Shown piece after piece: positions 2 to 18,200 of a DNA stretch of 23,281 nt. The position numbers and the translations under genes were made by a program. A model generated the notes under the pieces. The model was not told the origin of the DNA. It saw nothing but the letters and a program-made list of their open reading frames with translations, and did no database searches. The DNA is taken from the IMG/VR virus record IMGVR_UViG_3300030328_002342, positions 1 through 23,281 of that record; one strand, given 5' to 3'. This DNA is from a virus. The stretch's first letter is position 1. Each line of letters opens with the position of its first letter.

Positions 2-520
2 AGAACACATAACTCTCCACTTCATAATACTGGATGGTCAGGTTTTAATTATAATAAAGCAGCTGCTGAAGAAGATTACATGCCAATTGAGCATGATATG
101 CACAGAGGTATGTCTAGAGAATCATCTGAATTTAAATATATGCCAATAGAGGATATTGAAAAAGGTGATGCAGAAGGGGATACGACTAAGTATAAAAAAG
201 TTATAAATAAAGCAATTATGCAGAAAGCTACTAAAGCAGAAGTATCAGCTAAATTACGTGAGATGTTTCCTGAAGTTAAAAATAACTCTGTAGAAGTTAA
301 CTGGAGCCCTGATGGTAAAAAAGTAGAAGTATATAAAAAAGATTCTCCATTAAATGCTAAAGGAGATAAATGTCCAGAAAGTGGATGTGTACAAGAAAAA
401 GGTAATGGAAAATGGGGAGTAATTAGTGGTAAAACTGGTAAATGGTGGGATGCTAATTATGATTCAAGAAGTTCTGCAGAAGCAGGATTAAGAGCTTATT
501 TCGCAAACGGAGGAAACTAA
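2..520 (+). CDS. SPL-motif small phage protein, 5' end missing
   Basis: The reading frame is open from base 2 with no stop before the first ATG at 80. The true start is therefore probably outside the window and this is a 3' fragment of at least 172 residues. The upstream part encodes HNSPLHNTGWSGFNYN and a run of acidic residues. The C-terminal part has KKDSPLNAKG, two Cys (KCPESGCVQ) and a compact ending with WGVISGKTGKWWD and AEAGLRAYFANGG, which looks like a small folded domain. The SPL motif occurs twice here and again in the genes at 520 and 1692. The stop overlaps the next ATG (TAATG), so the two are probably cotranslated. I do not know the function. From memory, similar endings occur in hypothetical proteins of marine phages, but this is unverified. 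If the gene does start in this window, ATG 80 is the candidate. Confidence 0.75.
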   Translation, partial: RTHNSPLHNTGWSGFNYNKAAAEEDYMPIEHDMHRGMSRESSEFKYMPIEDIEKGDAEGDTTKYKKVINKAIMQKATKAEVSAKLREMFPEVKNNSVEVNWSPDGKKVEVYKKDSPLNAKGDKCPESGCVQEKGNGKWGVISGKTGKWWDANYDSRSSAEAGLRAYFANGGN

Positions 521-1044
521 TGGATACACTAGATAAATTAAGAGGGAAATTTTTTAATAAAAATTCATTTAATGTAGGTTTTAATAATAGATCTCCATTA
601 AATTATATAACTTCAAGTGGACCTACTCAACCAACATTCAATGACACAGGTATGAAATCATTTGAACCAGATCAGTGGAAAGGAGCTTTTGATTCATCAG
701 ATGCAGTGAGAAAAGAAACTAAAGCTCATATTGACAAACAAAAAGGTTATTACAAAGCAGCTTGGGATGGTATTAAGCTGTTAGCTACTGCCGGTATGGG
801 TGGTGCAGCAGCTGGTGGTGGAGCTGGAGGTGCAACTGGTTTTCAACAATTTATCAGCGGAGCTGATAGTATTTTTAGCGGAGAAGCTTTACAAAATGCT
901 GATAATTTTCTTGGAAATATAAATTGGCAAGAGAAACTATCTAAAAAGAAAGAAGACAAAGAAGACGATAAACAAAATCAAGAAGACGAAGAAAAAAGTT
1001 CATTATGTGAAATGAATCCTGATTCTTCTTTCTGTGAAAATTAA
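520..1044 (+). CDS. Hypothetical phage protein with SPLN motif and Gly/Ala-rich segment
   Basis: This 174-residue protein starts at the ATG that shares its A with the previous stop. The N-terminus carries FNNRSPLNYITSSG (about residues 21-35), matching the SPL motif of its neighbours. The middle (about residues 85-110) is a Gly/Ala-rich, weakly hydrophobic stretch reading GMGGAAAGGGAGGATG. It could insert into or lie against a membrane, or be a flexible packing segment in the virion. After residue 145 the protein is a highly charged Lys/Asp/Glu tail that ends with two Cys spaced nine residues apart (CEMNPDSSFC). No catalytic motif is visible. A 73-base gap with no hairpin that I trust follows before the next gene. 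It could be an internal virion or membrane-contacting protein, but that is a guess from composition only. Confidence 0.7.
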   Translation: MDTLDKLRGKFFNKNSFNVGFNNRSPLNYITSSGPTQPTFNDTGMKSFEPDQWKGAFDSSDAVRKETKAHIDKQKGYYKAAWDGIKLLATAGMGGAAAGGGAGGATGFQQFISGADSIFSGEALQNADNFLGNINWQEKLSKKKEDKEDDKQNQEDEEKSSLCEMNPDSSFCEN

Positions 1045-1117
1045 TAAAAACAGTCATGGATCTGTATAAAACCAAAGAAAAATAGAAAATAAACATTAAC
1101 ATTTAAAAACAAAAATC

Positions 1118-1537
1118 ATGGCAAATTGGATTAATTTCAACGTAGTGGGTGGTGTAACAGATGGTGCAGGTGCAACTCCAGCTCCAGAGATGGATGGAGA
1201 TAACTTAGTATTAGCTGAAAGCATTATCAATGTATCAGTACCAACTCCAGCTCCGGCTTCTGCTATTGAAGCAGTATTAAACTTAGCTGGACCAGCAGGT
1301 GCAACAACTTGTACGCTTATCTGTTCAACTTCAGCTGATGCAGGAGATGCTCCTGACGCTAACGTACCAGCTTCAGCAGATTACGTAAACAAAGTAAAAG
1401 CAGCTATCATCAGATCAATGACAGCAAATCCAGGTGGAGTAAAATCTAACTGTATTTTACCTCAAGATCAAGCTGATAACACTGCTCCATACGATCCAAC
1501 ACTTAGAGTGTACTGGAGAAGTTTCGTAGTAGCATAA
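1118..1537 (+). CDS. Small abundant-type virion protein, decoration protein candidate
   Basis: This 139-residue, Ala/Pro/Val/Thr-rich protein has low charge and no membrane segment, and looks like a compact beta protein (starts MANWINFNVVGG; ends LRVYWRSFVVA). The codon use stands out. AAC, TAC, TTC and ATC are frequent here, as in the major capsid gene, while neighbouring genes use AAT, TAT, TTT and ATA. That bias in an AT-rich phage usually marks a highly expressed product. The A-rich leader (TTTAAAAACAAAAATC before ATG) fits a Bacteroidota-type start without Shine-Dalgarno. The inference is a small capsid decoration or other abundant structural protein, encoded away from the head block. 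No family was recognised, so another abundant early or structural protein is equally possible. Three Cys are present (CTLIC and NCILP). Confidence 0.7.
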   Translation: MANWINFNVVGGVTDGAGATPAPEMDGDNLVLAESIINVSVPTPAPASAIEAVLNLAGPAGATTCTLICSTSADAGDAPDANVPASADYVNKVKAAIIRSMTANPGGVKSNCILPQDQADNTAPYDPTLRVYWRSFVVA

Positions 1538-1539
1538 GT

Positions 1540-1695
1540 ATGAAACCTAGAGGATTAGGCGATTCTATCGCACAATTCACAAAAAAAACAGGTATTAAGG
1601 CTGTAGTCAATAAAATGGCTAACAGCCTTAATAAACCCTGTGGTTGTCAAAAAAGACAAAATTATTTAAATAATAAATTTCCTTATAAACAATGA
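1540..1695 (+). CDS. 51-residue CGC-type small phage protein
   Basis: This is a short frame of 51 codons. It starts two bases after the previous stop, ends in TGA, and its stop overlaps the ATG of the next gene (ATGA), so position alone supports a real gene. The N-terminal half (GLGDSIAQFTKKTGIKAVVN) is predicted to form one amphipathic helix. The C-terminal half has the compact motif KPCGCQKRQNYLNNKFPY. A CGC.KR...LN..FPY signature seems familiar to me from other small Bacteroidota-phage proteins, but I could not search for it. Two Cys alone cannot make a full zinc site, so metal binding would need dimerisation or a partner. Function unknown. Confidence 0.75.
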   Translation: MKPRGLGDSIAQFTKKTGIKAVVNKMANSLNKPCGCQKRQNYLNNKFPYKQ

Positions 1696-2036
1696 GAATC
1701 AATCTACAAAGAAAATTTACAATGAATTCTCCCCTAAAAATTGATAACACTCCTGTGTATCAAGTGGATTTAGGTGAAGGTATATTAGGTAAAGGAAATA
1801 AAAATGGGACTATATTAGTGTCAGACAAAATAAAAGATCCCGAAGAAAGACAAAGCATTATAGACCATGAGGGTGTACATATAGATCAAATTAAAAGAGG
1901 AGACTTAGATTATGATGATGAAGCTGTATACTGGAAAGGTAAAAAATATTCTAGAGCAGAAATGGATGAAGGTAATCCAAATCTACCTTGGGAACAAGAA
2001 GCATATTCAAAAACAGACAATTACGAAAAATATTAA
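1692..2036 (+). CDS. Small zincin-like (HExxH) putative metallopeptidase
   Basis: This protein has 114 residues. It contains a clear HEGVH motif (His59, Glu60, His63) followed about 40 residues later by PWEQEAY. The spacing and the Glu101/Glu103 pair suit a gluzincin-type third zinc ligand. The N-terminus includes MNSPLKID (residues 11-18), another SPL motif. The intervening KRGDLDYDD...YWKGK segment is consistent with a minimal zincin core. The start at 1692 overlaps the preceding TGA; ATG 1722 (Met11) is the alternative. There is no signal peptide, so it acts in the cytoplasm or in the virion. Possible roles are cleavage of a virion or host protein, or help in lysis, since a holin follows at 2794. 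The substrate is unknown. Catalysis is inferred from the motif only. Confidence 0.78.
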   Translation: MRINLQRKFTMNSPLKIDNTPVYQVDLGEGILGKGNKNGTILVSDKIKDPEERQSIIDHEGVHIDQIKRGDLDYDDEAVYWKGKKYSRAEMDEGNPNLPWEQEAYSKTDNYEKY

Positions 2037-2038
2037 TC

Positions 2039-2794
2039 ATGGCATATATACAAAACAATCCTTTTTTAAGAAAAGAATCAAAAAAAGAACTTGAAAAAGT
2101 TGTAAGTAGTGAAGATCCACAATGGGTAGATGATCCAACACGATACCATCAAACTTATACATTAAATCCTGATTATGACGCTTTAGAGAGGAGAGAAATT
2201 CAATCACCTGATAATTACGTGAAATTGCCAAATGATGAAAGGTCTTACCTCAGACCAAGAGTAATAAAAAACTTAGAAGGTGGACCAGGTAATAGATATG
2301 ACGAAATCCCTACTTTTGAATCGCTTGAACCAAGTGGAAACGAAATACAAGACATAGCTAACTATGAATTATTGAAGAAAAATGTTGCGGATTCTTTAGC
2401 TTTAGTTAATAAAGGTGATAACTGGGCAGCTGCTTCTATTTATGGAGATAATTTAGGTAAAGATGCTAGAATGATGACAAAAATGGATCAATTAAGTAGT
2501 CATAATGCTAACCTTATGAATAATTTAAGAGGTTATCAAAATACCTCTGGAAATTATAATGCATCGGATGACTGGAATCAATACTCTACACTTAGTTCTG
2601 TAAAGCCAGATTCTGATTTTGCTCAACAAAATCCTAATTATACAGGAAGTGATATAAATCAATCATATTACGTAGAAGGACAGGGACCTGGTTCTACTGG
2701 TTTCACGGGAGGAAAAAGATTTATAAGTAAAAATGAAGCTGGTGAAAAGTTGAGAGGCATGCGTAATTTGAGAAATAATATTGCAGGATTCTAA
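2039..2794 (+). CDS. Hypothetical phage protein, possibly virion-associated
   Basis: I place the start at ATG 2039 (MAYIQNNPFLRKE), two bases after the previous stop. The longer frame from 1988 would overlap the zincin gene by 49 bases and add 17 residues of unlikely sequence. The product is 251 residues. Its first part is charged and Pro-containing, the middle is helical (about residues 100-170), and the last 80 residues are rich in Asn, Ser, Tyr and Gly (NYNASDDWNQYSTLSS, GSTGFTGGKRF). This composition is common in phage virion proteins. No motif was recognised. It shares its stop with the start of the holin (TAATG), so it belongs to the same transcription unit. Confidence 0.7.
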   Translation: MAYIQNNPFLRKESKKELEKVVSSEDPQWVDDPTRYHQTYTLNPDYDALERREIQSPDNYVKLPNDERSYLRPRVIKNLEGGPGNRYDEIPTFESLEPSGNEIQDIANYELLKKNVADSLALVNKGDNWAAASIYGDNLGKDARMMTKMDQLSSHNANLMNNLRGYQNTSGNYNASDDWNQYSTLSSVKPDSDFAQQNPNYTGSDINQSYYVEGQGPGSTGFTGGKRFISKNEAGEKLRGMRNLRNNIAGF

Positions 2795-3914: not shown

Positions 3915-4134
3915 TGTAATAAGAAAAATCAGTATTGGTGCTGATTATAAGAATGAAGCAATGCATTATTCTGTAGGTCAACAAGTATATGGAGGACATG
4001 AAATTTCTCATATATTGTTAGACGAAAAAGATAATTCTTACAATATTTATATAAAGAAAAACAATGAGGTATTGCCTTGGAAGAAATTTAATTCTAACAT
4101 GGCAATATCTATTGAATATGATCTTGAATATTAA
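3907..4134 (+). CDS. Conserved-looking 75-residue phage protein
   Basis: The protein has 75 residues (starts MSNVIRKISIGADYKN; contains MHYSVGQQVYGG and EVLPWKKFN; ends ISIEYDLEY). It looks like a single small beta-rich domain with strands separated by charged turns. From memory, very similar short proteins occur upstream of terminase genes in marine podoviruses, but no function is known to me. It overlaps the preceding gene by eight bases and its stop shares an A with the next start (TAATG). The tight coupling with the co-chaperonin gene suggests a role in virion assembly, which is inference. Confidence 0.7.
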   Translation: MSNVIRKISIGADYKNEAMHYSVGQQVYGGHEISHILLDEKDNSYNIYIKKNNEVLPWKKFNSNMAISIEYDLEY

Positions 4135-4760
4135 TGAAAAGCTTATATGATTTTATTGTAGAACCTTTAGGGGATAGATATGCAAATAATAAAAAAATAA
4201 GTGAAAAGAAATTAATTTTAAATACTAAAATTGAATCTTGGAAGTTTGTTAATAGATTTGCTAAGGTTATATCTACTCCTGCAGCTATAAAAACACCCAT
4301 TAAAAAAGGCGATATTATAGTTGTTCATCAAAATATTTTTAGAAGATTCTATAATATGAAAGGTAGGCAGCAAAATAGTAGATCTTTTTTTAAAAATAAT
4401 ATGTATTTTGTAGGTGTAGATCAAGTTTATTTATATAAGAATAAAGATAAATGGATATCTTTTGGAGATAGATGCTTTGTAATGCCTTTAAAAAACACTA
4501 ATGATTTAAGCACTAGTAAAGAAGAAAAATGTGTTGGTATACTAAAAATAGGTAATAATACATTAGAGGCATCTGAAATTAATTCAGGAGACAAGATTGG
4601 GTTTAAACCTGGTGCTGAATGGGAGTTTATTATAAATAATGAACGCCTTTATTGTATGAAATCAAATGATATAGTTATAAAATATGAGTACAAAGGAAAC
4701 GAAGAAGAATATAATCCAAGCTGGACAAGTAGCAGTCAAAGAGTTAATAAAAGTTGCTAA
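4134..4760 (+). CDS. GroES-like co-chaperonin, apparently two GroES-type units
   Basis: The protein has 208 residues. The N-terminal unit starts VEPLGDRY (residues 9-16, like the PLGDR start of GroES), then KVISTPAAIKTPIKKGDIIV (44-63) and HQNIFRRF. The C-terminal unit starts GDRCFVMPL (111-119), then VGILKIG, GDKIGFKPGAEWEFI (152-166) and NNERLYCMKSNDIVIKYE (168-185), which closely follows the GroES ending (idg..l..m...dIl). Phage co-chaperonins such as T4 gp31 work with host GroEL to fold the capsid protein, and the terminase-portal-capsid block just downstream fits that role. The 3' end overlaps the next gene by 77 bases in another frame. Single-domain decoration around one GroES fold is the alternative reading. 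The assignment is from motifs only. Confidence 0.7.
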   Translation: MKSLYDFIVEPLGDRYANNKKISEKKLILNTKIESWKFVNRFAKVISTPAAIKTPIKKGDIIVVHQNIFRRFYNMKGRQQNSRSFFKNNMYFVGVDQVYLYKNKDKWISFGDRCFVMPLKNTNDLSTSKEEKCVGILKIGNNTLEASEINSGDKIGFKPGAEWEFIINNERLYCMKSNDIVIKYEYKGNEEEYNPSWTSSSQRVNKSC

Positions 4761-4962
4761 AGAACCAATTATAGATTTTGGACCTGATATTTCCGCGGAT
4801 AGATTAAAGAACGCAGCAGCTACTAAAAAACTAGCTATATTTGATGCTTTTGAAATTCTAAATAGAATAGAAGAAGAAAGAAACTTATTAGAAGATAAAC
4901 CTAAACAAGAGGAGAAGAAAGAGAAAACTTTTAAAGGGTTTGCAGAAGGGAGGTCTAAGTAA
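4684..4962 (+). CDS. Possible small terminase subunit, 92 residues
   Basis: The protein has 92 residues and only one Met, so ATG 4684 is the natural start despite a 77-base overlap with the co-chaperonin gene. It is all-helical. A Lys-rich N-terminal helix (QAGQVAVKELIKVAK) is followed by GPDISADRLKNAAATKKLAI (helix-turn-helix-like spacing), a third helix, and an acidic/basic tail (DKPKQEEKKEKTFKG). It ends on the A shared with the first ATG of terL. Position, size and helical DNA-binding-like make-up fit a small terminase subunit, which recognises the packaging site. No diagnostic signature was recognised, so this is an inference from context. It could instead be a terminase cofactor. Confidence 0.6.
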   Translation: MSTKETKKNIIQAGQVAVKELIKVAKEPIIDFGPDISADRLKNAAATKKLAIFDAFEILNRIEEERNLLEDKPKQEEKKEKTFKGFAEGRSK

Positions 4963-7178
4963 TGTACGAACAAACTTTATATAAAGTATTACCAGATTAC
5001 GTTAAACCTAAAATTCTTAAAAAAAACAATAAGTATAAAAAATGGGATTACGGGTATAATGAAGAGCATGATTTTGTAGTTATAAGTAAGACAGGTGAAA
5101 TAGGTGAAGTATATGAAATACAAAATTTAAAAATAGCATTACCCAAAACTCCTAAAGAAGTACATAGGTTCGATGATAATAAATGGCAGAGAACGCCATT
5201 ACCTAAAGTTCTTAAAAAAATTAAAAGCGTTTTTGAATGGGATAACTATCCTGAGGATTTCAAAGAAAAATGGTATGATTTCATTGATTCCGAATTTGTA
5301 AAACGTGAGGATGGTTTTTGGTTTTATAATGATGGAAAACCCACATATTTAACTGGTACGCATTATATGTACCTTCAATGGTCTAAGATTGATGTTGGAC
5401 CACCAGATTTTAGAGAAGCAAATAGATTGTTCTTTTTATTTTGGGAAGCTTGTAAAGCAGATACTAGATGTTATGGGATGTGTTATCTTAAAAATAGACG
5501 TTCTGGTTTTTCTTTTATGGCATCAGGTGAAACAGTTAACTTAGCTACTTTAGCTAGTGATTCTAGATATGGTATATTATCTAAAACTGGACCCGATGCA
5601 AAAACAATGTTTACAGATAAAGTAGTTCCTATATCAGTTAATTATCCTTTCTTTTTTAAACCGATTCAAGATGGTATGGATCGACCTAAAACAGAATTAG
5701 CATATAGAGTTCCAGCTTCTAAATTTACTAGAAGAAAAATAATAACAGGTGAAGTAGCTGCTGATCTTCAAGGATTAGATACAACTATCGATTGGAAAAA
5801 TACTGGTGACAACTCTTATGATGGTGAAAAACTTAAATTACTAGTTCATGATGAATCTGGTAAATGGGAAAAACCAAACAATATCTTAAACAACTGGAGA
5901 GTTACTAAAACTTGTTTGCGATTAGGTAGTAGAATTATTGGTAAATGCATGATGGGTTCTACTAGTAATGCATTGGATAAAGGTGGTGCTAATTTTAAAA
6001 AATTATATGAAAGCTCAGATGTTACAAAACGAAACGCCAATGGACAGACTCGCAGCGGATTATATAGTTTGTTCATACCTATGGAATGGAATTACGAAGG
6101 ATACATTAATGCTTATGGCTTACCTGTATTCGAAACACCAGAACAACCGGATGAAGATCCCCATGGTCAAAAAATTAAAATAGGGGTTTTAGATTATTGG
6201 AAAAACGAAGTAGATGGTTTAAGCGAAGATCAAGATGCTTTAAATGAATTTTATAGACAGTTTCCACGTACAACTAAACATGCTTTTAGGGATGAATCTA
6301 AAAACTCTTTATTCAATCTAACTAGGATTTATCAACAAATAGATTGGAATCAAGATCTTAAACATAGCAATGTTATAACACAGGGTTCTTTTCAATGGAT
6401 AGGAGGAATAAAAGATACTGAAGTTATGTTTGTTCCAAATAAAAATGGTAGATTTTTTGTATCTTGGGTTCCACCTCAAAGATTACAAAATAATATAATA
6501 AAAAAATTAGGTAGGAAATATCCAGGTAATGAAAACTTAGGAGCATTTGGTTGTGATAGTTATGATATATCTGGAACAGTAGATGGTAGAGGTTCTAATG
6601 GATCTCTTCATGGTTTAACCAAGTTTAGTATGGAAGATGTTCCTCCTAATCATTTCTTTTTAGAATATATAGCTAGACCACAAACAGCTGAAATATTTTT
6701 TGAAGATGTTTTAATGGCTTGTATATTTTACGGAATGCCAATATTAGCAGAAAATAATAAACCTAGATTATTATATCATTTTAAAAGAAGAGGATATAGA
6801 GGTTTTGCTATGAATAGACCTGACAAAATTTATAATAAATTATCAGTAACTGAAAGAGAAATAGGTGGTATACCAAATTCAAGTGAAGATATAAAACAAG
6901 CTCATGCAGCTGCTATAGAATCTTATATTGAAGAGCGAATTGGATTATTAGATGATCTTAATTATGGAGATATGTATTTCCAAAGAACATTAGAAGATTG
7001 GGCAAAATTTAATATAAATAATAGAACTTCACATGATGCTTCTATTAGCTCAGGACTTGCAATCATGGCTTGTAATAAAAATAAATATAGACCAGTTCCT
7101 AAATTAATTAAACAAAAATATGATTTAGGTATAAAAAAATATGACAATAGTGGTTCATTATCAAAAATTATAGATTAA
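4962..7178 (+). CDS. terL: Terminase large subunit (packaging ATPase/nuclease)
   Basis: The protein has 738 residues and is the DNA-packaging motor. The ATPase part carries KNRRSGFS at Lys177-Ser184, a deviant P-loop with Lys at its front, as in lambda gpA (KSARVGYS), rather than the classical GKS/T. Walker B is KLLVHDES with Asp297/Glu298, and a motif III-like GKCMMGSTSN follows. The nuclease part shows three spaced acidic residues of an RNase H-like fold: Asp532 (FGCDSYD), Glu597 (LAENNKPRLL) and Asp692 (SHDASISSG). It cuts concatemers and translocates DNA into the prohead through the portal encoded next, which starts on the base after this gene's stop. The long N-terminus (about 150 residues before the P-loop) is larger than in many terminases. 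I am confident in the call. Confidence 0.93.
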   Translation: MYEQTLYKVLPDYVKPKILKKNNKYKKWDYGYNEEHDFVVISKTGEIGEVYEIQNLKIALPKTPKEVHRFDDNKWQRTPLPKVLKKIKSVFEWDNYPEDFKEKWYDFIDSEFVKREDGFWFYNDGKPTYLTGTHYMYLQWSKIDVGPPDFREANRLFFLFWEACKADTRCYGMCYLKNRRSGFSFMASGETVNLATLASDSRYGILSKTGPDAKTMFTDKVVPISVNYPFFFKPIQDGMDRPKTELAYRVPASKFTRRKIITGEVAADLQGLDTTIDWKNTGDNSYDGEKLKLLVHDESGKWEKPNNILNNWRVTKTCLRLGSRIIGKCMMGSTSNALDKGGANFKKLYESSDVTKRNANGQTRSGLYSLFIPMEWNYEGYINAYGLPVFETPEQPDEDPHGQKIKIGVLDYWKNEVDGLSEDQDALNEFYRQFPRTTKHAFRDESKNSLFNLTRIYQQIDWNQDLKHSNVITQGSFQWIGGIKDTEVMFVPNKNGRFFVSWVPPQRLQNNIIKKLGRKYPGNENLGAFGCDSYDISGTVDGRGSNGSLHGLTKFSMEDVPPNHFFLEYIARPQTAEIFFEDVLMACIFYGMPILAENNKPRLLYHFKRRGYRGFAMNRPDKIYNKLSVTEREIGGIPNSSEDIKQAHAAAIESYIEERIGLLDDLNYGDMYFQRTLEDWAKFNINNRTSHDASISSGLAIMACNKNKYRPVPKLIKQKYDLGIKKYDNSGSLSKIID

Positions 7179-9578
7179 ATGAAGATAAATTATAATACTA
7201 ATAGTACATTTCCTAGCCAAGTTGTTAGTGATAGTGAAAAAGCCACTTGGGAATATGGTACGCAGGTTGCACAAGCTATAGAGCAGGAATGGTTTAGTCA
7301 AGGTAGAACAAATGGTAATAGATATTTAACTACTTGGAATAACTATAATAGATTGAGATTGTATGCAAGAGGTGAACAACCTACATCTAAATATAAAGAT
7401 GAATTATCTATTAATGGTGATTTATCTTATCTTAATTTAGACTGGAAACCTGTTCCTATTATATCTAAATTTGTTGACATATTAGTTAATGGAATATCTA
7501 ATAAACAATATGATATAAATGCATTTGCTCAAGATCCTGAATCTTTAGAGAAAAGAACCAATTATGCTGAAATGTTAGCCCAAGATATTTTTGCTAGACA
7601 AACAATGCAAGATATAGTTAATAAACTTGATTCTTCTTTATTTAATACTACAATTCCAGAAAGCAAACTACCTGAGGATGAAATTGAGTTAGAACTACAC
7701 ATGCAACTTAATTATAAGCAAGCGGTAGAAATTGCTGAAGAAGAAGTAATAAATCAAGTATTAGACACAAACAAATGGGAGTTAACAAAGCGAAGAGTTA
7801 ATTATGACTTAGTTACATGTGGAATTGGTGCTTGTAAAACTAATTTCAATCTATCTAATGGTATAACAGTTGATTATGTTGATCCAGCTTACTTAATATA
7901 TTCTTACACGGAAGATCCAAATTTTGAAGACATATACTATGTAGGGGAATTAAAACCAGTTACTTTACCTGAAATAGCTAAACAATTTCCAACATTAGAT
8001 GATGCTACTTTAGAAAAAATACAACAACAACAAGGTAATAGAACCTATATGTATGGATATGGTAATGGTCCATGGGATCAAAATACTATTCCATTATTAT
8101 ATTTTGAATACAAAACTTATAGCGATCAAGTATTTAAAATTAAAGAAACTGAATATGGATTAGAAAAAGCATTAGAAAAACCTGATACTTTTAATCCACC
8201 AGAAAATGATAATTTTCAAAGAGTAGGTAGAACTATAGAAACATTATATAGAGGAGTTAAAGTTTTAGGTACTGATATAATGTTAAGATGGGAGATGTGT
8301 CCTAATATGACTAGACCTAAAGCAGATACTACTAAAGTAGAGATGAATTATGCTATATGTGCACCTAGAATGTACAAAGGTAGAATTGAATCTACAGTAG
8401 GTAGAATTACTGGTTTTGCAGATATGATTCAAATAACACATCTTAAATTACAACAAGTTATAGCTAGAATGGTACCAGATGGTGTATTCTTAGATATGGA
8501 TGGTTTAGCAGAAGTTGATTTAGGTAATGGTACTAATTATAATCCAGCTGAAGCTTTGAACATGTATTTTCAAACCGGTTCTGTTGTGGGTAGATCATTA
8601 ACTCAAGATGGTGATATTAATAGAGGTAAAATACCTGTACAAGAATTATCTACAGGATCAGGACAAGCGAAAATTCAAAGTTTAATATCTACATATAATT
8701 ATTATTTACAAATGATAAGAGATGTAACCGGATTAAGTGAAGCGCGAGATGGTTCGGTTCCAGATAGAGACACATTAGTAGGATTACAAAAAATGGCTGC
8801 TAATGCTTCTAATATTGCTACTAAGCATATAAATAATAGTAGTTTGTATTTAACTTTAAGAATGTGTGAAAATATATCTAAAAAAGTTAGTGATATGTTA
8901 GATTATCCTTTAACTGCTAATGCATTAAGAAATAGTATAACTAATTTTAATAGTATTACTTTAAAAGAAGTAAATAAATTAAATCTACATGACTTTGGTA
9001 TATTCTTAGATTTAGAACCAGATGATGAAGAAAAAGCTACATTAGAACAAAACATACAAGTTGCTTTATCAAGTGGTGGTATTGATTTAGAAGATGCTAT
9101 TGAAATTAGACAAATACGTAATTTAAAATTAGCAAATCAAATGTTAAAAGTAAAGCGTAAAAAGAAACAAGCTTACGAAAGACAAATGCAAGCTGACATA
9201 GCTAAGCAACAAGCTGATGCTAATACGCAAGCTACTCAAGCAGCTGCTGAATCTGAAGTACAAAAGCAAGAAGTTTTAACTAATCAAAAAATAAATTTTG
9301 AACAAGCTAAGTCTCAGATGGAGATAGAAAGAATGAGAACGGAATCAGAAATAAAACGAGCATTAATGGCTGAAGAATTTAATTATCAAGTTCAGCTAGA
9401 ACAAATGAAAAATCAAAGAGAAACAACTCGTGAAAAAGAAATAGAAGATCGTAAAGATAAAAGAACAAGAATAGCTGGTACACAGCAAAGTAAAATGATA
9501 GATCAAAGACAAAATGATTTATTACCAATAAATTTTGAAGAACAAAACCAAATGGAAGATATGTTTCCAATTGGTTAA
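7179..9578 (+). CDS. Portal protein
   Basis: The protein has 799 residues and its ATG starts immediately after the terL stop. The size, the position between terminase and scaffold/capsid, and the core segment TGLSEARDGSVPDRDTLVGL (about residue 520) fit the large portals of crAss-like and related podoviruses. That segment is the helical/clip-type region seen in these proteins, from memory. The N-terminal part is mixed alpha/beta with several aromatic patches. Residues about 650-785 form a long Gln/Lys/Glu-rich coiled coil (for example MQADIAKQQADANTQATQ), probably the barrel or crown extending into the head. Twelve copies would form the DNA channel docking the terminase and the connector. A shared 22-base leader follows, in front of the scaffold gene. 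Confidence 0.85.
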   Translation: MKINYNTNSTFPSQVVSDSEKATWEYGTQVAQAIEQEWFSQGRTNGNRYLTTWNNYNRLRLYARGEQPTSKYKDELSINGDLSYLNLDWKPVPIISKFVDILVNGISNKQYDINAFAQDPESLEKRTNYAEMLAQDIFARQTMQDIVNKLDSSLFNTTIPESKLPEDEIELELHMQLNYKQAVEIAEEEVINQVLDTNKWELTKRRVNYDLVTCGIGACKTNFNLSNGITVDYVDPAYLIYSYTEDPNFEDIYYVGELKPVTLPEIAKQFPTLDDATLEKIQQQQGNRTYMYGYGNGPWDQNTIPLLYFEYKTYSDQVFKIKETEYGLEKALEKPDTFNPPENDNFQRVGRTIETLYRGVKVLGTDIMLRWEMCPNMTRPKADTTKVEMNYAICAPRMYKGRIESTVGRITGFADMIQITHLKLQQVIARMVPDGVFLDMDGLAEVDLGNGTNYNPAEALNMYFQTGSVVGRSLTQDGDINRGKIPVQELSTGSGQAKIQSLISTYNYYLQMIRDVTGLSEARDGSVPDRDTLVGLQKMAANASNIATKHINNSSLYLTLRMCENISKKVSDMLDYPLTANALRNSITNFNSITLKEVNKLNLHDFGIFLDLEPDDEEKATLEQNIQVALSSGGIDLEDAIEIRQIRNLKLANQMLKVKRKKKQAYERQMQADIAKQQADANTQATQAAAESEVQKQEVLTNQKINFEQAKSQMEIERMRTESEIKRALMAEEFNYQVQLEQMKNQRETTREKEIEDRKDKRTRIAGTQQSKMIDQRQNDLLPINFEEQNQMEDMFPIG

Positions 9579-9586
9579 TTATTAAT

Positions 9587-9608
9587 TATTTAATTATATT
9601 ATATTATG
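9587..9608 (+). promoter_or_regulatory. Duplicated A/T leader, copy 1 (before scaffold gene)
   Basis: The 19 bases before ATG 9606, plus the ATG itself, are identical to 12370-12391. The sequence is pure A/T (TATTTAATTATATTATATT then ATG). It has no Shine-Dalgarno, which suits Bacteroidota-type initiation on an unstructured A/T leader. A weaker echo (TTAATATTATG) precedes the capsid gene at 10842. It may set the translation level, or be part of a late promoter. Confidence 0.55.
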
Positions 9609-10826
9609 TCAGATAAAAAAGCGGCCGTAGAGGTCAAACAAGAAGGTGAATTTTCTTTAAAAGGAAAAATAAAACCTAGAAAACCAAAAGATCTAGGATC
9701 AAAAAAGAATAATGAACCTGTTAAAATTGATTTAACTAAACCTGAAGCTCAAGGAGAAGTAATTCCTGATGTTGTAAAGGTTGATTTAACTAAAAAACCA
9801 GAAGATAATGCCATTCAAGAGCGAAAAACAGAGGAAGTTTCTCTGGGCGAATCACCCGGAGATAGCAAAAAAATGGACACAGAAGTACGGGTCAGCGATA
9901 CAGATGATAAAAAGGAACCTGAAGTCCAAGTAATTGAAGAAATTACAGAAGAAGTTAAACCAATAGAAGAAGTAAAAGAAGAACCTCAAAAAATTGAAAC
10001 ACCTAAACTTCCAGAAAATGTAGAAAAACTGGTAGATTTTATGAATGAAACAGGTGGAACAGTAGAGGATTATGTAGAACTTAATAAAGATTATTCTAAA
10101 CTAGATAATGATCAATTATTAAAAGAATACTTAAGAAAAAATAAACCTCATCTTGATTCAGATGACATTGCTCTTATAATGGAAGATTATGAGATTGATG
10201 AAGAATTAGATGAAACAAAAGATATACGTAGAAAAAAACTAGCTTATAAAGAAGCTGTTGCTAATGCTAAACAGGAATTAGAAAATCAAAAATCTAAATA
10301 CTATGCTGAAATAAAGCAAAGACCTGGTACAACACAAGAGCAGCAAAAAGCTATGGATTTTTTTAATCGTTACAACAAACAGCAAGAAACTATAAAGCAA
10401 TCACAAGAAGCTTTTAAAGAAAAAACTAATAATTTATTTCAAACTGATTTCAAAGGTTTTGATTACACAGTAGGAGATAAAAAATTTAGATATAAAGTAA
10501 AAGATCCTGTGAAAATAGCTGAAAGTCAATCTAATATTCAAAACTTTGTTAATAAATTTATTGATAAAGAAGGACGTATAAGTGACACTGAAGGTTATCA
10601 TAAAGCTTTATATGCTGCGATGAATACTGATAAACTAGCTTCTCATTTTTATGAACAAGGAAAAGCTGATGGTATTAAAAATTTAGTACAAAAATCTAAA
10701 AATCCAAGTGCGGATGCGCCGAGGCAAGTTGCCAGTGGGGACGTCTTTGTAGGAGGTTTTAAGGTAAAATCAGTTAGTGGAGCAGATTCATCAAAATTGA
10801 AAATCAAAAAACGAAAGTTTAACTAA
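9606..10826 (+). CDS. Head scaffolding protein
   Basis: The protein has 406 residues, is highly charged, and sits between portal and major capsid protein, the usual place of a scaffold. The first ~140 residues are disordered Lys/Glu/Pro-rich sequence with two similar stretches (KIDLTKPEAQGEVIPD and KVDLTKKPEDN), pointing to internal duplication. The rest is mostly helical: VEKLVDFMNETGGTVEDYVE (about 139-158), a helix ending KPHLDSDD, and a long coiled coil (YKEAVANAKQELENQKSKYY). A Lys-rich C-terminus (SKLKIKKRKFN) could dock to the capsid protein, as basic scaffold tails do in P22-like systems. Two short patches (about 9835-9895 and 10707-10750) use GC-richer codons than the rest. No protease domain is visible. 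Confidence 0.78.
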   Translation: MSDKKAAVEVKQEGEFSLKGKIKPRKPKDLGSKKNNEPVKIDLTKPEAQGEVIPDVVKVDLTKKPEDNAIQERKTEEVSLGESPGDSKKMDTEVRVSDTDDKKEPEVQVIEEITEEVKPIEEVKEEPQKIETPKLPENVEKLVDFMNETGGTVEDYVELNKDYSKLDNDQLLKEYLRKNKPHLDSDDIALIMEDYEIDEELDETKDIRRKKLAYKEAVANAKQELENQKSKYYAEIKQRPGTTQEQQKAMDFFNRYNKQQETIKQSQEAFKEKTNNLFQTDFKGFDYTVGDKKFRYKVKDPVKIAESQSNIQNFVNKFIDKEGRISDTEGYHKALYAAMNTDKLASHFYEQGKADGIKNLVQKSKNPSADAPRQVASGDVFVGGFKVKSVSGADSSKLKIKKRKFN

Positions 10827-10841
10827 TTAAAAATTAATATT

Positions 10842-12311
10842 ATGGCTTTAACCCCACAGTTTGGAAGTTTAGTACCTTCTCAAACTCAACAAGCACTAGC
10901 TACAAATTATCTTCAATGGACAGATAATGGTGGTGGTGGTGCGGTACCAGCAAATTTTAGAGATTTTGCAGCGCAATATCTACCTGAAATTTACGAACAA
11001 GAAGTAGAAAGATATGGTAACAGAACGTTATCTGGTTTCTTAAGAATGGTCGGTGCTGAATTACCAATGACAAGTGACCAAGTAATCTGGTCTGAACAAA
11101 ATAGATTACATATTGCATATGATGGACTTACACCTACATACGCTGGAAATAACATTATTAACTTCACAGGTACTCCTGCTGGTGTTGAAAACGTTATCTC
11201 TGTAGGATCGACAGTAGTAGTAATGGATGACTTTGGAAACGAAGTTAAATGTTATGTTTCTTCTACGGTTCCAGGCGGTGCCGGTGTTGGTACAATTACA
11301 GCTTTACCTTATACTGCTCCAGACATTGTTACTGCTGGTTTAGTAGGTTTAGTAAAAGTATTTGTATACGGTTCTGAATACGCAAAAGGATCAACAACTC
11401 CTAACTTTGATGCAGCTGCTCCGGCAATTACTAATCAAATTATTAGTGTTACTCCTTCATTTACTCAATTCTCAAATAACCCTATCATTATTAGAAGTAA
11501 ATATACTGTAAACGGTTCTGACACTGCTCAGATCGGTTGGGTAGAAGTTGCTACTGAAGATGGAACTGGTGGTTATTTATGGTATCTAAAAGCTGAGTCT
11601 GAAACTAGACTTAGATTTGAGGATTACCTAGAAATGATGTGTGTTGAAGGTGAGATAGCTGCTGCTGCTTCTGGAGCTCTAGGTAACGGTCAGATTGGAA
11701 CACAAGGTATGTTTGCTGCTATCCAAGATAGAGGTAATGTACAAGTTGGTTTCTCTGCGGCTGCTGGTATTAGTGACTTTGATGATATTCTTAGAAACTT
11801 AGATACTCAGGGAGCAATTGAAGAAAACATGTTATTCCTAGACAGACAAACTGCTCTAGATTTTGATGACATGTTAGCTCAAATCTCTGCTGGATCTGCT
11901 GGTGGTACAGCTTATGGATTATTTGAAAACTCAGAAGAAATGGCATTAAACTTAGGTTTTAGCGGTTTCAGAAGAGGTTCTTATGACTTCTATAAGACTG
12001 ACTGGAAATACTTAAACGACGCGTCAACACGTGGTGGTATGACTGGACCTGCTTCTATTGAAGGAGTATTAGTTCCAGCTGGTACTACAACTGTTTATGA
12101 TCAAATTTTAGGAACTAACATCCGTAGACCTTTCTTACACGTAAGATATAGAGCGTCTCAAGCTGATGATAGAAGAATGAAATCTTGGTTAACAGGTTCG
12201 GTTGGTGGTGCATTTACTAGTGATCTTGATGCAATGGAAGTAAACTTCCTTTCAGAAAGATGTTTAGTAACTCAAGCTGCTAACAACTTTGTATTATTCA
12301 AAGGAGTGTAA
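10842..12311 (+). CDS. Major capsid protein
   Basis: The protein has 489 residues and follows the scaffold. It is rich in Ala, Gly and Thr with a balanced charge. The N-terminal region contains a helical RDFAAQYLPEIYEQEVERYG and TSDQVIWSEQNRLHIAYDG, and the middle has beta-rich inserted segments. Codon use is shifted to AAC, TTC and GAC in a way not seen in most neighbours, a mark of very high expression. Position after portal and scaffold, length and codon bias identify it as the HK97-fold shell protein. The fold itself is inferred, because no structure-specific motif can be proven here. The gene ends at a strong UUCG-loop terminator that closes this transcript. A prohead protease cutting the N-terminus was not found. 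Confidence 0.88.
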   Translation: MALTPQFGSLVPSQTQQALATNYLQWTDNGGGGAVPANFRDFAAQYLPEIYEQEVERYGNRTLSGFLRMVGAELPMTSDQVIWSEQNRLHIAYDGLTPTYAGNNIINFTGTPAGVENVISVGSTVVVMDDFGNEVKCYVSSTVPGGAGVGTITALPYTAPDIVTAGLVGLVKVFVYGSEYAKGSTTPNFDAAAPAITNQIISVTPSFTQFSNNPIIIRSKYTVNGSDTAQIGWVEVATEDGTGGYLWYLKAESETRLRFEDYLEMMCVEGEIAAAASGALGNGQIGTQGMFAAIQDRGNVQVGFSAAAGISDFDDILRNLDTQGAIEENMLFLDRQTALDFDDMLAQISAGSAGGTAYGLFENSEEMALNLGFSGFRRGSYDFYKTDWKYLNDASTRGGMTGPASIEGVLVPAGTTTVYDQILGTNIRRPFLHVRYRASQADDRRMKSWLTGSVGGAFTSDLDAMEVNFLSERCLVTQAANNFVLFKGV

Positions 12312-12321
12312 TTATTCACAT

Positions 12322-12365
12322 TAATAATGCCTCCATCTTCGGGTGGAGGTTATTATTATTTTTTT
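12322..12365 (+). terminator. UUCG-loop terminator after the capsid gene
   Basis: Stem: CCTCCATC (12330-12337) pairs with GGTGGAGG (12342-12349) around the tetraloop TTCG (12338-12341), with a C-G closing pair and one T-G wobble. Below it the stem continues through a G-T wobble, a one-base bulge at 12351, and ATTATT-type pairs. A run of seven T (12359-12365) follows. The C(UUCG)G loop is a classic stable hairpin. Confidence 0.9.
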
Positions 12366-12369
12366 AAAC

Positions 12370-12391
12370 TATTTAATTATATTATATTATG
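12370..12391 (+). promoter_or_regulatory. Duplicated A/T leader, copy 2 (before 275-residue gene)
   Basis: This is identical over 22 bases to 9587-9608, with the ATG at the same position. It lies just past the capsid terminator, so it could act in restarting expression of the next gene. It is A/T only and shows no recognisable Bacteroidota TAnnTTTG element. Confidence 0.55.
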
Positions 12392-13216
12392 GCTAAAAAA
12401 GCAAAACAAGAAGAGGTAGTGGAAGAAGTAGTTGCTGTTGCAACACCACCACAACCAGAACCACCTAAGGTTAAAAAACCTACGTGGGAAGTAAGAGATA
12501 GAGTTTATATACTAGAACGTGGTGAAGAACCATTAACATATACAATTCCTTCAAAGCATACAAGGAGACATCCTTTATTATGGTTTGATGAAAAACAACA
12601 AAAGCAAAGAGAATTAAGATATGCAACTAATATGACTAGTCCATTTGTAGATGAACAAAAAGGAGAAGTTACATTAGGTCATATTACTTTTAGAAATGGT
12701 GTATTAAATGTACCAAAAGAAAATATAATTTTACAAAAATTATTATCTTTGTACCACCCATTTGTTAATAAAAAATACTCTGAATTTATAGCATCACAAG
12801 AAGCTGAAGACGAATTAGATATTATAGAGTGGGAAATTGAAGCTCTTAATGTAGCTCGTAACATGGATATTGATATGGCTGAAGCTATTGTTAGAGTTGA
12901 ATATGGAACTAAAGTTAATAGTTTATCTTCTAAAGAATTAAGAAGAGATTTATTAAAATTAGCTAAAAGAAATCCTAGATTATTCTTATCATTAGCTGCA
13001 GATGAAAATGTACAATTGAGAAACTTTGGTATCAATGCTGTAGAGCATGGTATTTTAAGGTTATCAGGTGATCAAAGATCTATACATTGGGCAAGTAATG
13101 ATAGAAAAATAATGACGGTTCCTTTTGATGAAAACCCTTACTCAGCGTTAGCTGCTTGGTTTAAAACAGACGAAGGAGTTGAAGTATATAAGTCGATAAA
13201 TAAAAGACTAAATTAA
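12389..13216 (+). CDS. Head-proximal protein of the virion module, 275 residues
   Basis: The protein has 275 residues. A low-complexity start (EEVVEEVVAVATPPQPEPP) is followed by WEVRDRVYILERGEEPLTYT (about 34-53) and HPLLWFDE (about 62-69), which look like a small beta domain. A helical middle (SQEAEDELDIIEWEIEALNV) follows, then a helical repeat-like C-terminus (LKLAKRNPRLFLSLAADENV) and a final beta stretch. It is isolated between two UUCG-loop hairpins, so it may have its own transcript level. The position between capsid and connector genes points to a head or connector component, but I recognise no family and claim no function. Confidence 0.7.
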   Translation: MAKKAKQEEVVEEVVAVATPPQPEPPKVKKPTWEVRDRVYILERGEEPLTYTIPSKHTRRHPLLWFDEKQQKQRELRYATNMTSPFVDEQKGEVTLGHITFRNGVLNVPKENIILQKLLSLYHPFVNKKYSEFIASQEAEDELDIIEWEIEALNVARNMDIDMAEAIVRVEYGTKVNSLSSKELRRDLLKLAKRNPRLFLSLAADENVQLRNFGINAVEHGILRLSGDQRSIHWASNDRKIMTVPFDENPYSALAAWFKTDEGVEVYKSINKRLN

Positions 13217-13249
13217 AATAACAGGGGCGGATTCGTCCGCCTCTTTATT
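13217..13249 (+). terminator. Second UUCG-loop hairpin terminator
   Basis: Stem: AGGGGCGGA (13223-13231) pairs with TCCGCCTCT (13236-13244) around TTCG, with one G-T wobble. With C13222 bulged, AATAA below pairs with TTATT (13245-13249). The architecture copies the capsid terminator. The T-run is short and is itself part of the stem, so it may be a weaker or leaky terminator. Confidence 0.8.
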
Positions 13250-13263
13250 AAAATAAAAATATA

Positions 13264-14028
13264 ATGGTAAACGTAAATGCAGTATATCAAACGGTGTTGT
13301 TAATATTAAACCAACAACAACGAGGTTATATAACTCCTGATGAATTCAATAAGATTGGTAGTCAAGCACAATTAGAAATATTTGAAGGATATGCTAGTGA
13401 CTTAAATCAACAGTATCGTTTATCTCAAAATGACACTGAGTATTCAAATCGTGTAAAAAATATACAAGAAAAATTACAGTATTTTCAGCGTACTGCTACA
13501 CCAGTTTATAATGTAGCAACTAATAAATTTGATATTTTAGATTTTCTAACATATAATGCTAACCCGAATCAAGCTTATCCTTTTGTATTCAATCCAAGCA
13601 GTGGTGTTGATGAGGTTTTATATAGACTAGGTACTGTATTTTATAAAGATTATGACCTAGGTCAATACACACAAAGAAACGAGTTAAGACAATTGTTACT
13701 TTCCCCTTTAACTCAACCAACAACTAATTTCCCTATATATTTATATGAGAATGATACATTGCAGGTATTTCCAAATACAATACAAGCAGATATAACTATA
13801 TCATATCTTAAAAGACCAGATAATGTGTTATGGAATTTTACTACAAATGCAGTTGGTGCGTATGAATATTCTAGAGGAACATCAATTCAATTTGAATTAG
13901 ATCCCACTGAACAAGAAGAGTTAATACTTAGAATATTAGCCTATGCTGGTGTTATAATTCAAGACCCATCCATAGTACAAGTAGCAGCTGCACAAGTTGC
14001 TAATCAAGATAATAACGAAAAACAATAA
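13264..14028 (+). CDS. Ring/connector-type protein (head-to-tail adaptor)
   Basis: The protein has 254 residues. It starts VNVNAVYQTVLLILNQQQRG (2-21), then ITPDEFNKIGSQAQLEIFEG, then a helix (YSNRVKNIQEKLQYF), a beta-rich middle (FPIYLYENDTLQVFPNTIQA and ITISYLKRPDNVLWNF) and a helical end (EQEELILRILAYAGVIIQDP). From memory, this arrangement of N-terminal helices and a strand-rich middle matches ring or connector proteins of crAss-like and marine podoviruses. It would join the portal to the tail. The start four bases after a short A/T run is the only one that fits the spacing to the terminator. The next gene begins three bases after its stop. Confidence 0.72.
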   Translation: MVNVNAVYQTVLLILNQQQRGYITPDEFNKIGSQAQLEIFEGYASDLNQQYRLSQNDTEYSNRVKNIQEKLQYFQRTATPVYNVATNKFDILDFLTYNANPNQAYPFVFNPSSGVDEVLYRLGTVFYKDYDLGQYTQRNELRQLLLSPLTQPTTNFPIYLYENDTLQVFPNTIQADITISYLKRPDNVLWNFTTNAVGAYEYSRGTSIQFELDPTEQEELILRILAYAGVIIQDPSIVQVAAAQVANQDNNEKQ

Positions 14029-14031
14029 TAT

Positions 14032-15285
14032 ATGCCAATGCCAAATGGTGGATTAATCACCGAAACTAACAGTCAATATTACGCAGGAGCGCAGGGATTT
14101 GTAGTAACAGCTTTAGCAGGACAAAGTGATTTTATATTTAACTTTAATACTTCTTTAAAGTTTGGAAATTGGGATCCTAATGTAACTGATTATGCTTTGA
14201 ATAATTTTAAACTTTATTCAAGTGTAGATGGTATAACTTACACAGAATATATTACTGCTTATGATGTAATTGTTCAACAAAATGGAGATAGTTTAGTAAG
14301 ACTTGCTGCCGCACTTCCTCAAAATAACGTACTGGTATGTCAATTAAAAACTATTGATGGTGGTAGTTTTGGAAATAGAGATGCTTACGGTACAACAACA
14401 GAACAAAACTATGGTAGTTATTCTTATTTAAAATTGAAAGATGTTGTTAACAACTTTATTGTGGGTTATGTAGGAAAAGATAAATTAATACCAGATGTTA
14501 AAAGAAGCGATATAATATTTCATGCTAAAAGAGGTTTACAGGAGTTTAGTTATGATACATTAAAGTCTGTTAAATCTCAAGAATTAACTGTACCTCATAC
14601 ATTAAGCGTTATACTTCCTCAAGATTATGTGAACTATGTAAGAATATCACGTATAGATCAATTAGGAGTACAAAGAATAATATATCCTTCTAATAATCTT
14701 ACAAATTCTCCGTATGAAAATCCGATACAAGATAATTTTGGAGTGCCAACTCAAGACAATTTTGAAGATAATCTAGAGGGTACTTCTTTAACTGAAGAGA
14801 GATGGGATAATGCTAACACTAATCTTATTAATCAAAACTATAACTGGACTTTATATAATGAAGGTTTAGATTGGGCTGGTTATAATTGGGGTTATGGAGG
14901 ATATTGGTATTGGAACTGGGGTGAGCAATATGGAATGTCACCACAATATGCTCAATATAATGGTTGGTTTAATATGAATGAAAGAGAAGGTAAAGTTTCT
15001 TTTTCTAGTAATTTAGTAGGTGCTTTAATAATACTAGAATACATATCAGATGGACTTGCTTATGATTTAGATAGTAGAATACCTAAATTAGCAGAAGAAG
15101 CTTTGTATGCTTATATTTTACATGCTATAATATCTACTAGAATTAATCAACCTGAATATGTAGTACAAAGATTAAAACGGGAAAAAAGTGCTAAGCTTAG
15201 AAACGCTAAAATTAGATTATCAAACGTTAAGTTAGATGAAATAGTACAAGTAATGCGTGGAAAAGCTAAATGGATAAAAAGATAA
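14032..15285 (+). CDS. Tail tubular (gp11-type) ring protein with extra beta domain and aromatic loop
   Basis: The protein has 417 residues. The N-terminal ~125 residues (YYAGAQGFVVTALAGQSDFI, LYSSVDGITYTEYI, LVCQLKTIDGG) read as a beta sandwich. The core then starts LKLKDVVNNFIVGYVGKDKL, followed by FHAKRGLQEFSYDTLKSVKS and ILPQDYVNYVRI, which I know from tail tubular A-like proteins of podoviruses. The end (EEALYAYILHAIISTRINQP, then RLKREKSAKLRNAKIRLSNV) is helical. Residues 271-313 contain 7 Trp, 8 Tyr and 1 Phe in 43 positions. The role is a ring below the portal. Whether the beta domain and aromatic loop are usual in the family is unverified. Confidence 0.78.
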   Translation: MPMPNGGLITETNSQYYAGAQGFVVTALAGQSDFIFNFNTSLKFGNWDPNVTDYALNNFKLYSSVDGITYTEYITAYDVIVQQNGDSLVRLAAALPQNNVLVCQLKTIDGGSFGNRDAYGTTTEQNYGSYSYLKLKDVVNNFIVGYVGKDKLIPDVKRSDIIFHAKRGLQEFSYDTLKSVKSQELTVPHTLSVILPQDYVNYVRISRIDQLGVQRIIYPSNNLTNSPYENPIQDNFGVPTQDNFEDNLEGTSLTEERWDNANTNLINQNYNWTLYNEGLDWAGYNWGYGGYWYWNWGEQYGMSPQYAQYNGWFNMNEREGKVSFSSNLVGALIILEYISDGLAYDLDSRIPKLAEEALYAYILHAIISTRINQPEYVVQRLKREKSAKLRNAKIRLSNVKLDEIVQVMRGKAKWIKR

Positions 15286-15288
15286 TAC

Positions 15289-18200
15289 ATGCCACAAGTA
15301 ACTAATACTTTTCTAAGGTCTAAAATGAATAAAGACCTTGACAATAGATTACTTCCAAACGGTGAATACAGAGATGCTCAAAATTTACAAGTAAGTAGAT
15401 CAGAAGGATCTGAAGTAGGAGAGTTTGAGAATGTTTTACAAAACCAAGAATTAACTTATTTTTATACTGGTAGAAATAATAATTTTTATGCTGGTAAAAT
15501 AATAGGTCAATTCACAGATGAAACTACTGAGAATATATATGTGTATAGCGCGGGTTATAATGGTAGTGGAAGATGTCCTAGAGATATAACAGTTTTTGCA
15601 TCGCCAGTTATAGGAGCTACTACAAGTTCAAGCTGGGAACTTTATGATTCTAGTGGTAATTTATTAGACCCTACTGTTCTGGGGTTAGAAGTAGGAATGA
15701 TGCTTTGGGGTGATAATTGGGATGGTCAACCATCAGGAGCGGGTGGTCAAGAGAAAGATCCTTTGATTACTTCAATAACACCACCAAGTGGTGGAAACCC
15801 TGGTACTATTGAGTTAAGTCAATCAATAACATTAAATGCTTCTAATACTATAAACATAGGTTTTACTAATACAATACATTCATATAACCCTACAACTGAC
15901 ATTACCACATTATTAGTTAGAGGATCTTTTCTTAATTTTAATCAAAACTTTAGGATATATGGTATAAATTTATTAGATAATTTATTATTTTGGACTGATA
16001 ACAATAATCAACCAAGAAAAATTAATGTAAGTTTAGCTAATCCTAACTTTTTAATATCTCCTGATTATTATGTTAATGAAGATCAAATATCTGTTGCTAA
16101 GTACTATCCTTATGAAACACCTTTAGTTTTACAACAAGTTAAATTAGAAGTACCTACCCCAAATGGTGGTAGTTATCCACCAACTCAACCTATAAAAGGA
16201 TATCAGATTGAAACAATAGATTGGGTTGGAGATTTTAATGTTAAAATAGGAGATATAGTTACTGGTTTTCCTGATCAAGCAGATAATGAAGTATGGCAGG
16301 TTTTATGGTATGAACCAGATGGTGGTAATAATGAGGTGATTATTTATAATAACTTTTTATTATTTCCTGGAACAACAGGTACTCCATGGAATCCAGCAGC
16401 TGGAACTTTTTTAAACTTCTCTAGACCTTCATCTACTGATTCATCAGATAGATTATTAACTAGAGGTTTTGATACTATTACTAATGCTAATGCTATTGGA
16501 CCTTATACTCCTGGAACACCTACTGGAGCAATTCCTACAGGAGATGATATTAGAGTAAATTATAAATTCACGAGTACAATAGGTGATCCTAGTGGTAATC
16601 CTACTCCTCAAATAGGAGATTTTATTACTAGTAAAACTATGGAAATTACTGGGTCAGGAGTAGTAGGTATTACTTTAGCTGACGAAGTGTGTATACAAGA
16701 AGTTGGAGAAATTGTCGTAGGTAGTGCTGGTTATATACAATTAAAATTAACACAACCGGTTACTATTAATGCTTTAGGCAATGATATATCTATTTCGGCT
16801 AATCCTAATTATAGTTTAGGTCAAAATCCTGCAGAAGAATTTACAGGTGATCCTGATTTAATAGAAGAAAAATTTGTTAGATTTAGTTATAGATTTAAAT
16901 TTGATGATAATGAATATTCTTTAGCAGCACCTTTCACACAGATATGTTTTATACCAGAACAACAAGGGATTTTTGGAAATGGACCAAATAATCAAACTCA
17001 AGATCAGATAAACTCTTATGATTCTACTATTTTAGATTGGTTTGTTAACTCGGTTAATACAATAGATTTAAAAATTCCTTTACCAGACACTGGAGTTTCA
17101 GCTATTGAAGCTGTTGAAGGTTTAATTAATGGGTATAAAGTAACTGATATAGAAATACTATACAAAGAATCTAATACAACTTCAGTTAAAATATTGGAAG
17201 TTATACCTGTAGATATTGGTTTAGCATCGTTTGTAGAAGAAATACCTTTAACTAGAGCTGGTAATGGAATTCAATGGTATTATAATTTTAATTATAAATC
17301 TATAAAACCTTATAGAACTCTACCTACTAATCAACAAAATAGAGTTTATGATAATGTTCCTTTAAAAGCTTTAGGACAAGAGATTAGTGCTAATAGAGTA
17401 ATATATGGTAATTTTTTACAGCAACATACACCACCTTTAAATTTAGATTATGAAGTTATAAATGCGGATAAATCTGTAGATTATAATAATTACGCGCAAT
17501 ATCCTAATCATTCTTTAAAACAAAATAGAAATTATCAAGCTGGATTTGTTTTAGCAGATAGATATGGAAGAGCTTCTAGTGTTGTACTATCTTCTAATGA
17601 TAATATACCTAATGTTCAAGGTTCTACTGTATATACACCTTATAAGTCTTTTGGAGATGTAGATAATATAGATGAAACTACTTATAAATGGTTGGGTAAT
17701 GTATTAAGAGTAAAAGTAAATAATGGATTAACACCTGCTCAACAAGTTAATAACGAGAATACAGGTGAACCCGGTTTGTATAAAGCGGAAAATGATACAA
17801 GCATCGATCAATTAGAAATAATTAATGGTGGTGTGGGTTATAATGTTGGTGATATAATAACTCTTAAATATACAACAAATAATGAAGGTTTAGGAAAAGA
17901 CGCAGAAGTTGAAGTTGTATCTGAAACTGCCAATGTAGTTACTGGAATAAAAATAATAAATAGAGGTACGGGATATGTGGATGGTGCTCGTTTAATACAA
18001 GACACTACTACAGGTGGTGGTGCAGGTTTTGAATGCACAGCGACTGTTTATCCTGCTAATCCTACTGGTTGGCAATCATATAAGATAGTTGTCAAACAAC
18101 AAGAACAAGAATATTATAACGTTTATCTACCTGGTTATGTTTCTGGTTATCCAGTTTTAAGTGCTAGAGATTATGGTAGAGTAGCATTTGCAGCATTATT

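Follow-up and report, generated by a model that had tools for sequence, protein, structure and literature searches.

A short SPLN peptide shared by unlike small proteins near the terminase gene of a marine phage lineage

The capsid targeting sequence (CTS) of phage T4 is an N-terminal peptide of about 10 residues which loads divergent internal proteins into the phage head, and it has been proposed as a route by which T4-like phages package various proteins (PMC9026906). Storage of phage-encoded proteins in the virion and their subsequent ejection have also been reported for phi-crAss001 (crAssvirus), a tailed phage of Bacteroidota; unlike the proteins considered below, its cargo proteins are large and few, and the available portions of that report describe no shared short loading peptide (PMC10172136). 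Here, we describe a peptide, the SPLN tag, which to judge from sequences alone would work like a targeting peptide while being set apart from the T4 CTS. Like the CTS of the internal proteins IPI-III, it is a short N-terminal peptide common to otherwise divergent small proteins. Unlike the CTS, it also occurs internally and in tandem, and neither a prohead protease nor cleavage was seen. The tag was defined from a single phage lineage; the likeness to the T4 CTS drawn here is one of description.

The whole stretch of DNA analyzed (23,281 bases, hereafter the window) is a metagenomic fragment held as an IMG/VR virus record. Its gene content identifies it as a podovirus-like phage fragment whose kin are Cellulophaga and Flavobacterium phages. 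Matches to PHROG families were obtained for its terminase, portal and capsid proteins; the terminase shares 45-64% identity with those of Flavobacterium elemo phages and of a Manatee Spring podovirus, with further matches in Cellulophaga, Maribacter and Tenacibaculum phages. The Cellulophaga (Pervagoviridae, Pachyviridae) and Flavobacterium elemo phages share the terminase/portal family and a similar gene order near the terminase, but the tag is not enriched in them, nor in the isolated relatives examined as a whole. In the window, the genes with SPL sites lie to the left of the terminase gene; in relatives, the same stretch runs from GroEL and a further GroES gene, both upstream of the tagged cluster, to the terminase gene. 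The features of the window are as follows.

2..520, + strand: left gene, 5' truncated; disordered-looking and multi-motif, with a small C-terminal domain at its end (CPESGCVQ...GLRAYFANG)
14..22, + strand: SPL site 1, HNSPLHN, left gene residues 5-7; RTHSSPLHNTG in relative L090
344..352, + strand: SPL site 2, DSPLNAKG, left gene residues 115-117, immediately 5' of the C-terminal domain
520..1044, + strand: ORF520; GFNNRSPLNYI at the N-terminus, then a fast-evolving body
592..600, + strand: SPL site 3, NNRSPLNYI, ORF520 residues 25-27
1692..2036, + strand: minigluzincin-like metallopeptidase (zincin), with HEGVH and an invariant E101
1728..1736, + strand: SPL site 4, MNSPLKID, zincin residues 13-15, in a low-pLDDT tail
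2039..2794, + strand: ORF starting MAYIQNNPFLRKESKK; carries the first half of the tag but no SPL, NNPF at nt 2054-2065
4134-4760: GroES-like co-chaperonin, second of its kind (phrog_13932, E 1e-22), just before the terminase gene
4962..7178, + strand: large terminase subunit (TerL), which marks the lineage and bounds the tagged module on the right

The four SPL sites had been noticed in the three left-hand genes in a preliminary description of the window, and all of them are present where it had placed them. Together, the five leftmost proteins comprise 650 aa; SPL is expected in them 0.10 times and was found 4 times, a number reached in 0 of 20,000 shuffles. This regional test is post hoc, and a search without a preset motif was therefore added. 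Over the whole window, 5 SPL were found vs. 1.5 expected (shuffle P 0.017). The preset-free search covered 667 proteins encoded upstream of TerL in 81 terminase-sharing contigs, counted by blastp families: SPL ranked first of all tripeptides, with 27 families vs. 11.2 after shuffling, so that the enrichment over composition-matched shuffles, which the preliminary description had named as a check, was recovered. In the same 81 contigs, SPL was not enriched downstream of TerL (5 vs. 6.5 shuffled). The 25 highest-ranking tripeptides also include MAF, PLN, MAY, SPF and NPF, which are pieces of a longer tag, and PLN, NPF, NNP and SRK were likewise high.

Since unmasked single-linkage families over-merge via the tag itself, families were also built from a larger contig set after hiding the tag, with one representative per family. 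With this masked clustering, SPL was found within the first 45 residues in 39 of 172 families, compared with 1.65 after shuffling, and ranked first, some groups such as the MPYTQKWGISRN proteins being over-split; the over-merged unmasked families gave 15 vs. 6.25 (rank 2). The true family count lies between the two, from 15 to 39, and the counts are approximate because genes were called by a simple longest-ORF script. A raw position count was dropped as evidence, non-dereplicated orthologues inflating unrelated tripeptides (LPS, KPL) too. Because several separate tests bear on it, the existence of the tag is near certain.

The motif initially proposed, (N/D/R)SPL followed by a polar residue, captured the core but was truncated. 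The full tag reads M-x-[YF]-x-Q-(x)-N-N-P-[LF]-S-R-K-x-S-P-L-N around the core SP[LFM][NDHK], with SPF and SPM variants, as exemplified by MAYTQKNNPLPRKSSPLN, MGYNQSNNPFSRKASPLN and MSYKQTNNPLSRKTSPLL. The tag also exists in shorter forms: SRxxSPLN in protein interiors, MKKSPLN at protein starts and, among ORF520 homologues, GFNNRSP[LF], the last being tied to the other tags by a protein of relative L177 which occupies the place of ORF520 and reads GFNNRTPNPLGRKSSPLN. Dozens of unlike, probably late proteins carry the tag, mostly among their first 45 residues; it occupies N-terminal tails and interdomain linkers, and a genome carries several tags on unlike proteins. Internal or tandem copies occur in L095, L154, L169 and L177. 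Tandem SPM repeats (KSPMKM, GHESPMEAGHESPM) were also noted in the proteins L076 330-617, L078 4434-4781 and L095 3592-4272, and a GSWMSKH stretch recurs in several small proteins of the tagged locus.

Conservation among orthologues, also named early on as a check, holds for ORF520 and for site 2 and is more limited at the two other sites. Nearly all of the ~30 ORF520 homologues keep GF[NGS]NRSP[LF] while their bodies diverge. Homologues of the left gene keep SP[LMF]N at site 2, ahead of the cysteine-containing C-terminal domain, in versions such as SRIASPLNAKG, SRLASPLNAKG and RPDSP[FM]NACA. By contrast, site 1 is conserved only in the closest full copy of the left gene, L090 3224-4258 (344 aa, 64% identical). 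Zincin homologues keep mainly the proline (P14, at least 90% conserved, mostly in the context [NSP]P[FLY]), and the zincin is therefore a looser member of the tag class. The C-terminal domain of the left gene (residues 124-166) has a match of 49% identity in a 58-aa ORF of the unannotated human faecal phage contig MT837925, which bears no SPL tag.

The proteins behind the tags are mostly of unfamiliar families. Searches of the tagged proteins with Pfam and NCBIfam gave almost no matches, and PHROGs returned unknown-function families only. In the tagged protein L172 3398-4243, residues 20-75 form a module of ~55 aa (phrog_20603) matching small proteins of the Thermus phages P23-45 and P74-26 with up to 58% identity, an odd host distance. 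The zincin carries the HExxH...E signature of minigluzincin/IrrE-like metallopeptidases: H59, E60, H63 and the downstream glutamate E101 are invariant in 47 aligned sequences. Its similarity in fold is weak, the best Foldseek matches being IrrE, selecase and abylysin (E 0.2-1, probability up to 0.95, TM-score 0.35-0.46). In the predicted structure, the N-terminal tail bearing the tag is probably flexible. The predicted structure of the neighboring ORF 1118 (pLDDT 89) matched no known fold significantly.

To determine the distribution of the tag, IMG/VR was scanned in full with back-translated tag patterns which hold no core-gene sequence. Matches were found only in contigs of the lineage of the window, at the pre-terminase locus; a lone 1.3 kb match without core genes proved to come from the same contig as another match. 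The tag is thus confined to one marine phage lineage and mostly to one locus. Small SPLN/SPLK proteins of marine phages, mentioned in the preliminary description, do exist. A narrow phrase search of open papers for the SPLN motif found no paper. Some related genomes have few or no tags, and no tagged isolate phage was recovered by tblastn when the zincin, left gene and tag served as queries. In the 68.9 kb contig of L020 (G001), 42 sampled small genes, mostly on the opposite strand, showed no SPL excess (1 vs. 0.9); one more tagged gene lies there beyond a 3300-aa protein, where the same-strand genes have their other end. In L183, a 3300-aa protein (7364-17266), without a match in Pfam or PHROG, is followed by a small tagged protein, which starts MSKFSSPFMAKSPLK. 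Tagged genes sit in a single strand run reaching the terminase, portal and capsid genes, a position from which tagged proteins are probably expressed late.

Several properties of the tag indicate what it is that has been conserved. The SPL codons occur in 19 combinations with background-like usage, which argues that selection acts on the peptide. A reading as DNA repeat or recombination sequence was rejected on the grounds of this usage and of codon differences between copies inside one genome. When SP[LMF] sites of non-homologous proteins are compared, their flanks are more alike within a genome (mean BLOSUM62 -1.27) than between genomes (-2.47), a likeness matched by 0 of 500 label permutations. 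Such genome-specific dialects are what a shared binding partner would produce, and recent copying of tags within a genome would produce them too. The stretch of 12 residues preceding SPL is basic: its net charge is +1.9, against +0.5 for the protein as a whole (P 2e-6).

That one transplantable peptide recurs on unlike proteins which change fast suggests that it docks to a single partner. The core of the initial suggestion, a short docking or packaging tag shared within a cluster of accessory genes, has stood up to both checks, the tag being above shuffles and conserved in orthologues, while loading into the capsid is an inference. In the mechanism that we favor, the tag, carried by a varying assortment of small, probably late proteins encoded between the GroEL/GroES genes and the terminase gene, would bind one common phage partner in the course of assembly, and any protein bearing it would thereby be recruited. 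The likeliest partner would belong to the head under assembly, as its scaffold, portal or major capsid protein, and the tagged proteins would enter the particle and be delivered together with the DNA, as are the T4 internal proteins via their capsid targeting sequence. Taken as a whole, this mechanism, whose timing, partner, location and delivery we infer, is given somewhat less than an even chance. Virion loading nevertheless leads among the readings, if tentatively, on the combined grounds of the T4 CTS, of cargo storage in Bacteroidota phages and of the isolate phi40:1, in which small proteins encoded in the matching region before the terminase gene (gp069, gp077, gp080) were identified in virions by MS/MS. 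Counting against it, the tag also occurs internally and in tandem, which is unusual for an N-terminal signal that is cleaved off. In the window, no prohead protease was recognized, and the protein in scaffold position has no protease family match; removal of the tag as in T4 is hence unsupported, although a protease may be unrecognized or encoded outside the window. The gene in scaffold position (9606-10826) contains a +1-frame ORF, MPFKSEKQRKFLWANHPEIAKKWTQKYGSAIQMIKRNLKSK (window 9808-9933), found in 17 loci including the window and always in the +1 frame of that gene. A comparison of 30 codons from 13 loci gives a pairwise identity of 76% for this ORF vs. 55% for the main frame, and the third positions of the ORF itself are the most variable, which makes it probably a conserved overlapping gene; it has a weak match to phrog_1375.

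Other destinations or origins of the tag have to be weighed against virion loading. Tagged late proteins could be taken to a host factor in the membrane, the envelope or the division machinery, for instance in lysis control. The cluster adjoins a holin-like gene and a gene whose small product seems to have a signal peptide, and N-termini of basic character could attach to membranes or to nucleic acid; yet genome-specific dialects and restriction to one lineage are not readily explained in this way, and we consider a host target unlikely. Docking on an assembly helper and not on the particle (for instance the phage GroEL, GroES or second GroES-like protein), by which tagged proteins would be folded or assembled with or without packaging, would agree with the chaperonin genes that flank the tagged cluster. 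However, GroEL is also encoded by relatives with few or no tags (L012, L063, L065) and by untagged isolates, and the tag is polar and basic whereas the mobile loop of GroES is hydrophobic; of the functional alternatives, this is the one to which we give least credit, and it is improbable.

The tag might also be a relic and not a docking peptide at all, if the tagged proteins had reused the N-terminus of one ancestral gene by domain shuffling and kept it as a leftover start module. Alike starts (MAYxQNNPxSRK) with modular domains behind them fit such a history, which is nonetheless quite unlikely, since the tag is also found in mid-protein and in very short forms (MKKSPLN), and its conservation while the bodies diverge points to selection on the tag itself. 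Chance or composition, for instance serine-proline helix caps in low-complexity proteins, had been admitted from the outset, the tripeptide being short and the sites having been picked after looking. The first rank of SPL against composition-matched shuffles, its conservation in orthologues, its lack of enrichment downstream of TerL and the within-genome likeness of the flanks all disfavor this origin, which is now very improbable.

If virion loading is the correct reading, the tag may be one expression of a lineage-specific cargo code of marine flavobacterial phages, in which rapidly exchanged small proteins would be packaged and injected by means of a transplantable SPLN peptide, co-evolution of receptor and tag would give rise to the dialects, and the system would be independent of that of T4 and free of cleavage; in this full form, the proposal is speculative and rather doubtful. 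Whatever its receptor, the tag gives a sequence-based means to select uncharacterized small proteins of marine phages which probably share one destination. Should this destination be the virion, the tag would constitute a second, independent peptide code for protein packaging next to that of T4, and would provide a handle for finding the early host-takeover proteins of marine phages.
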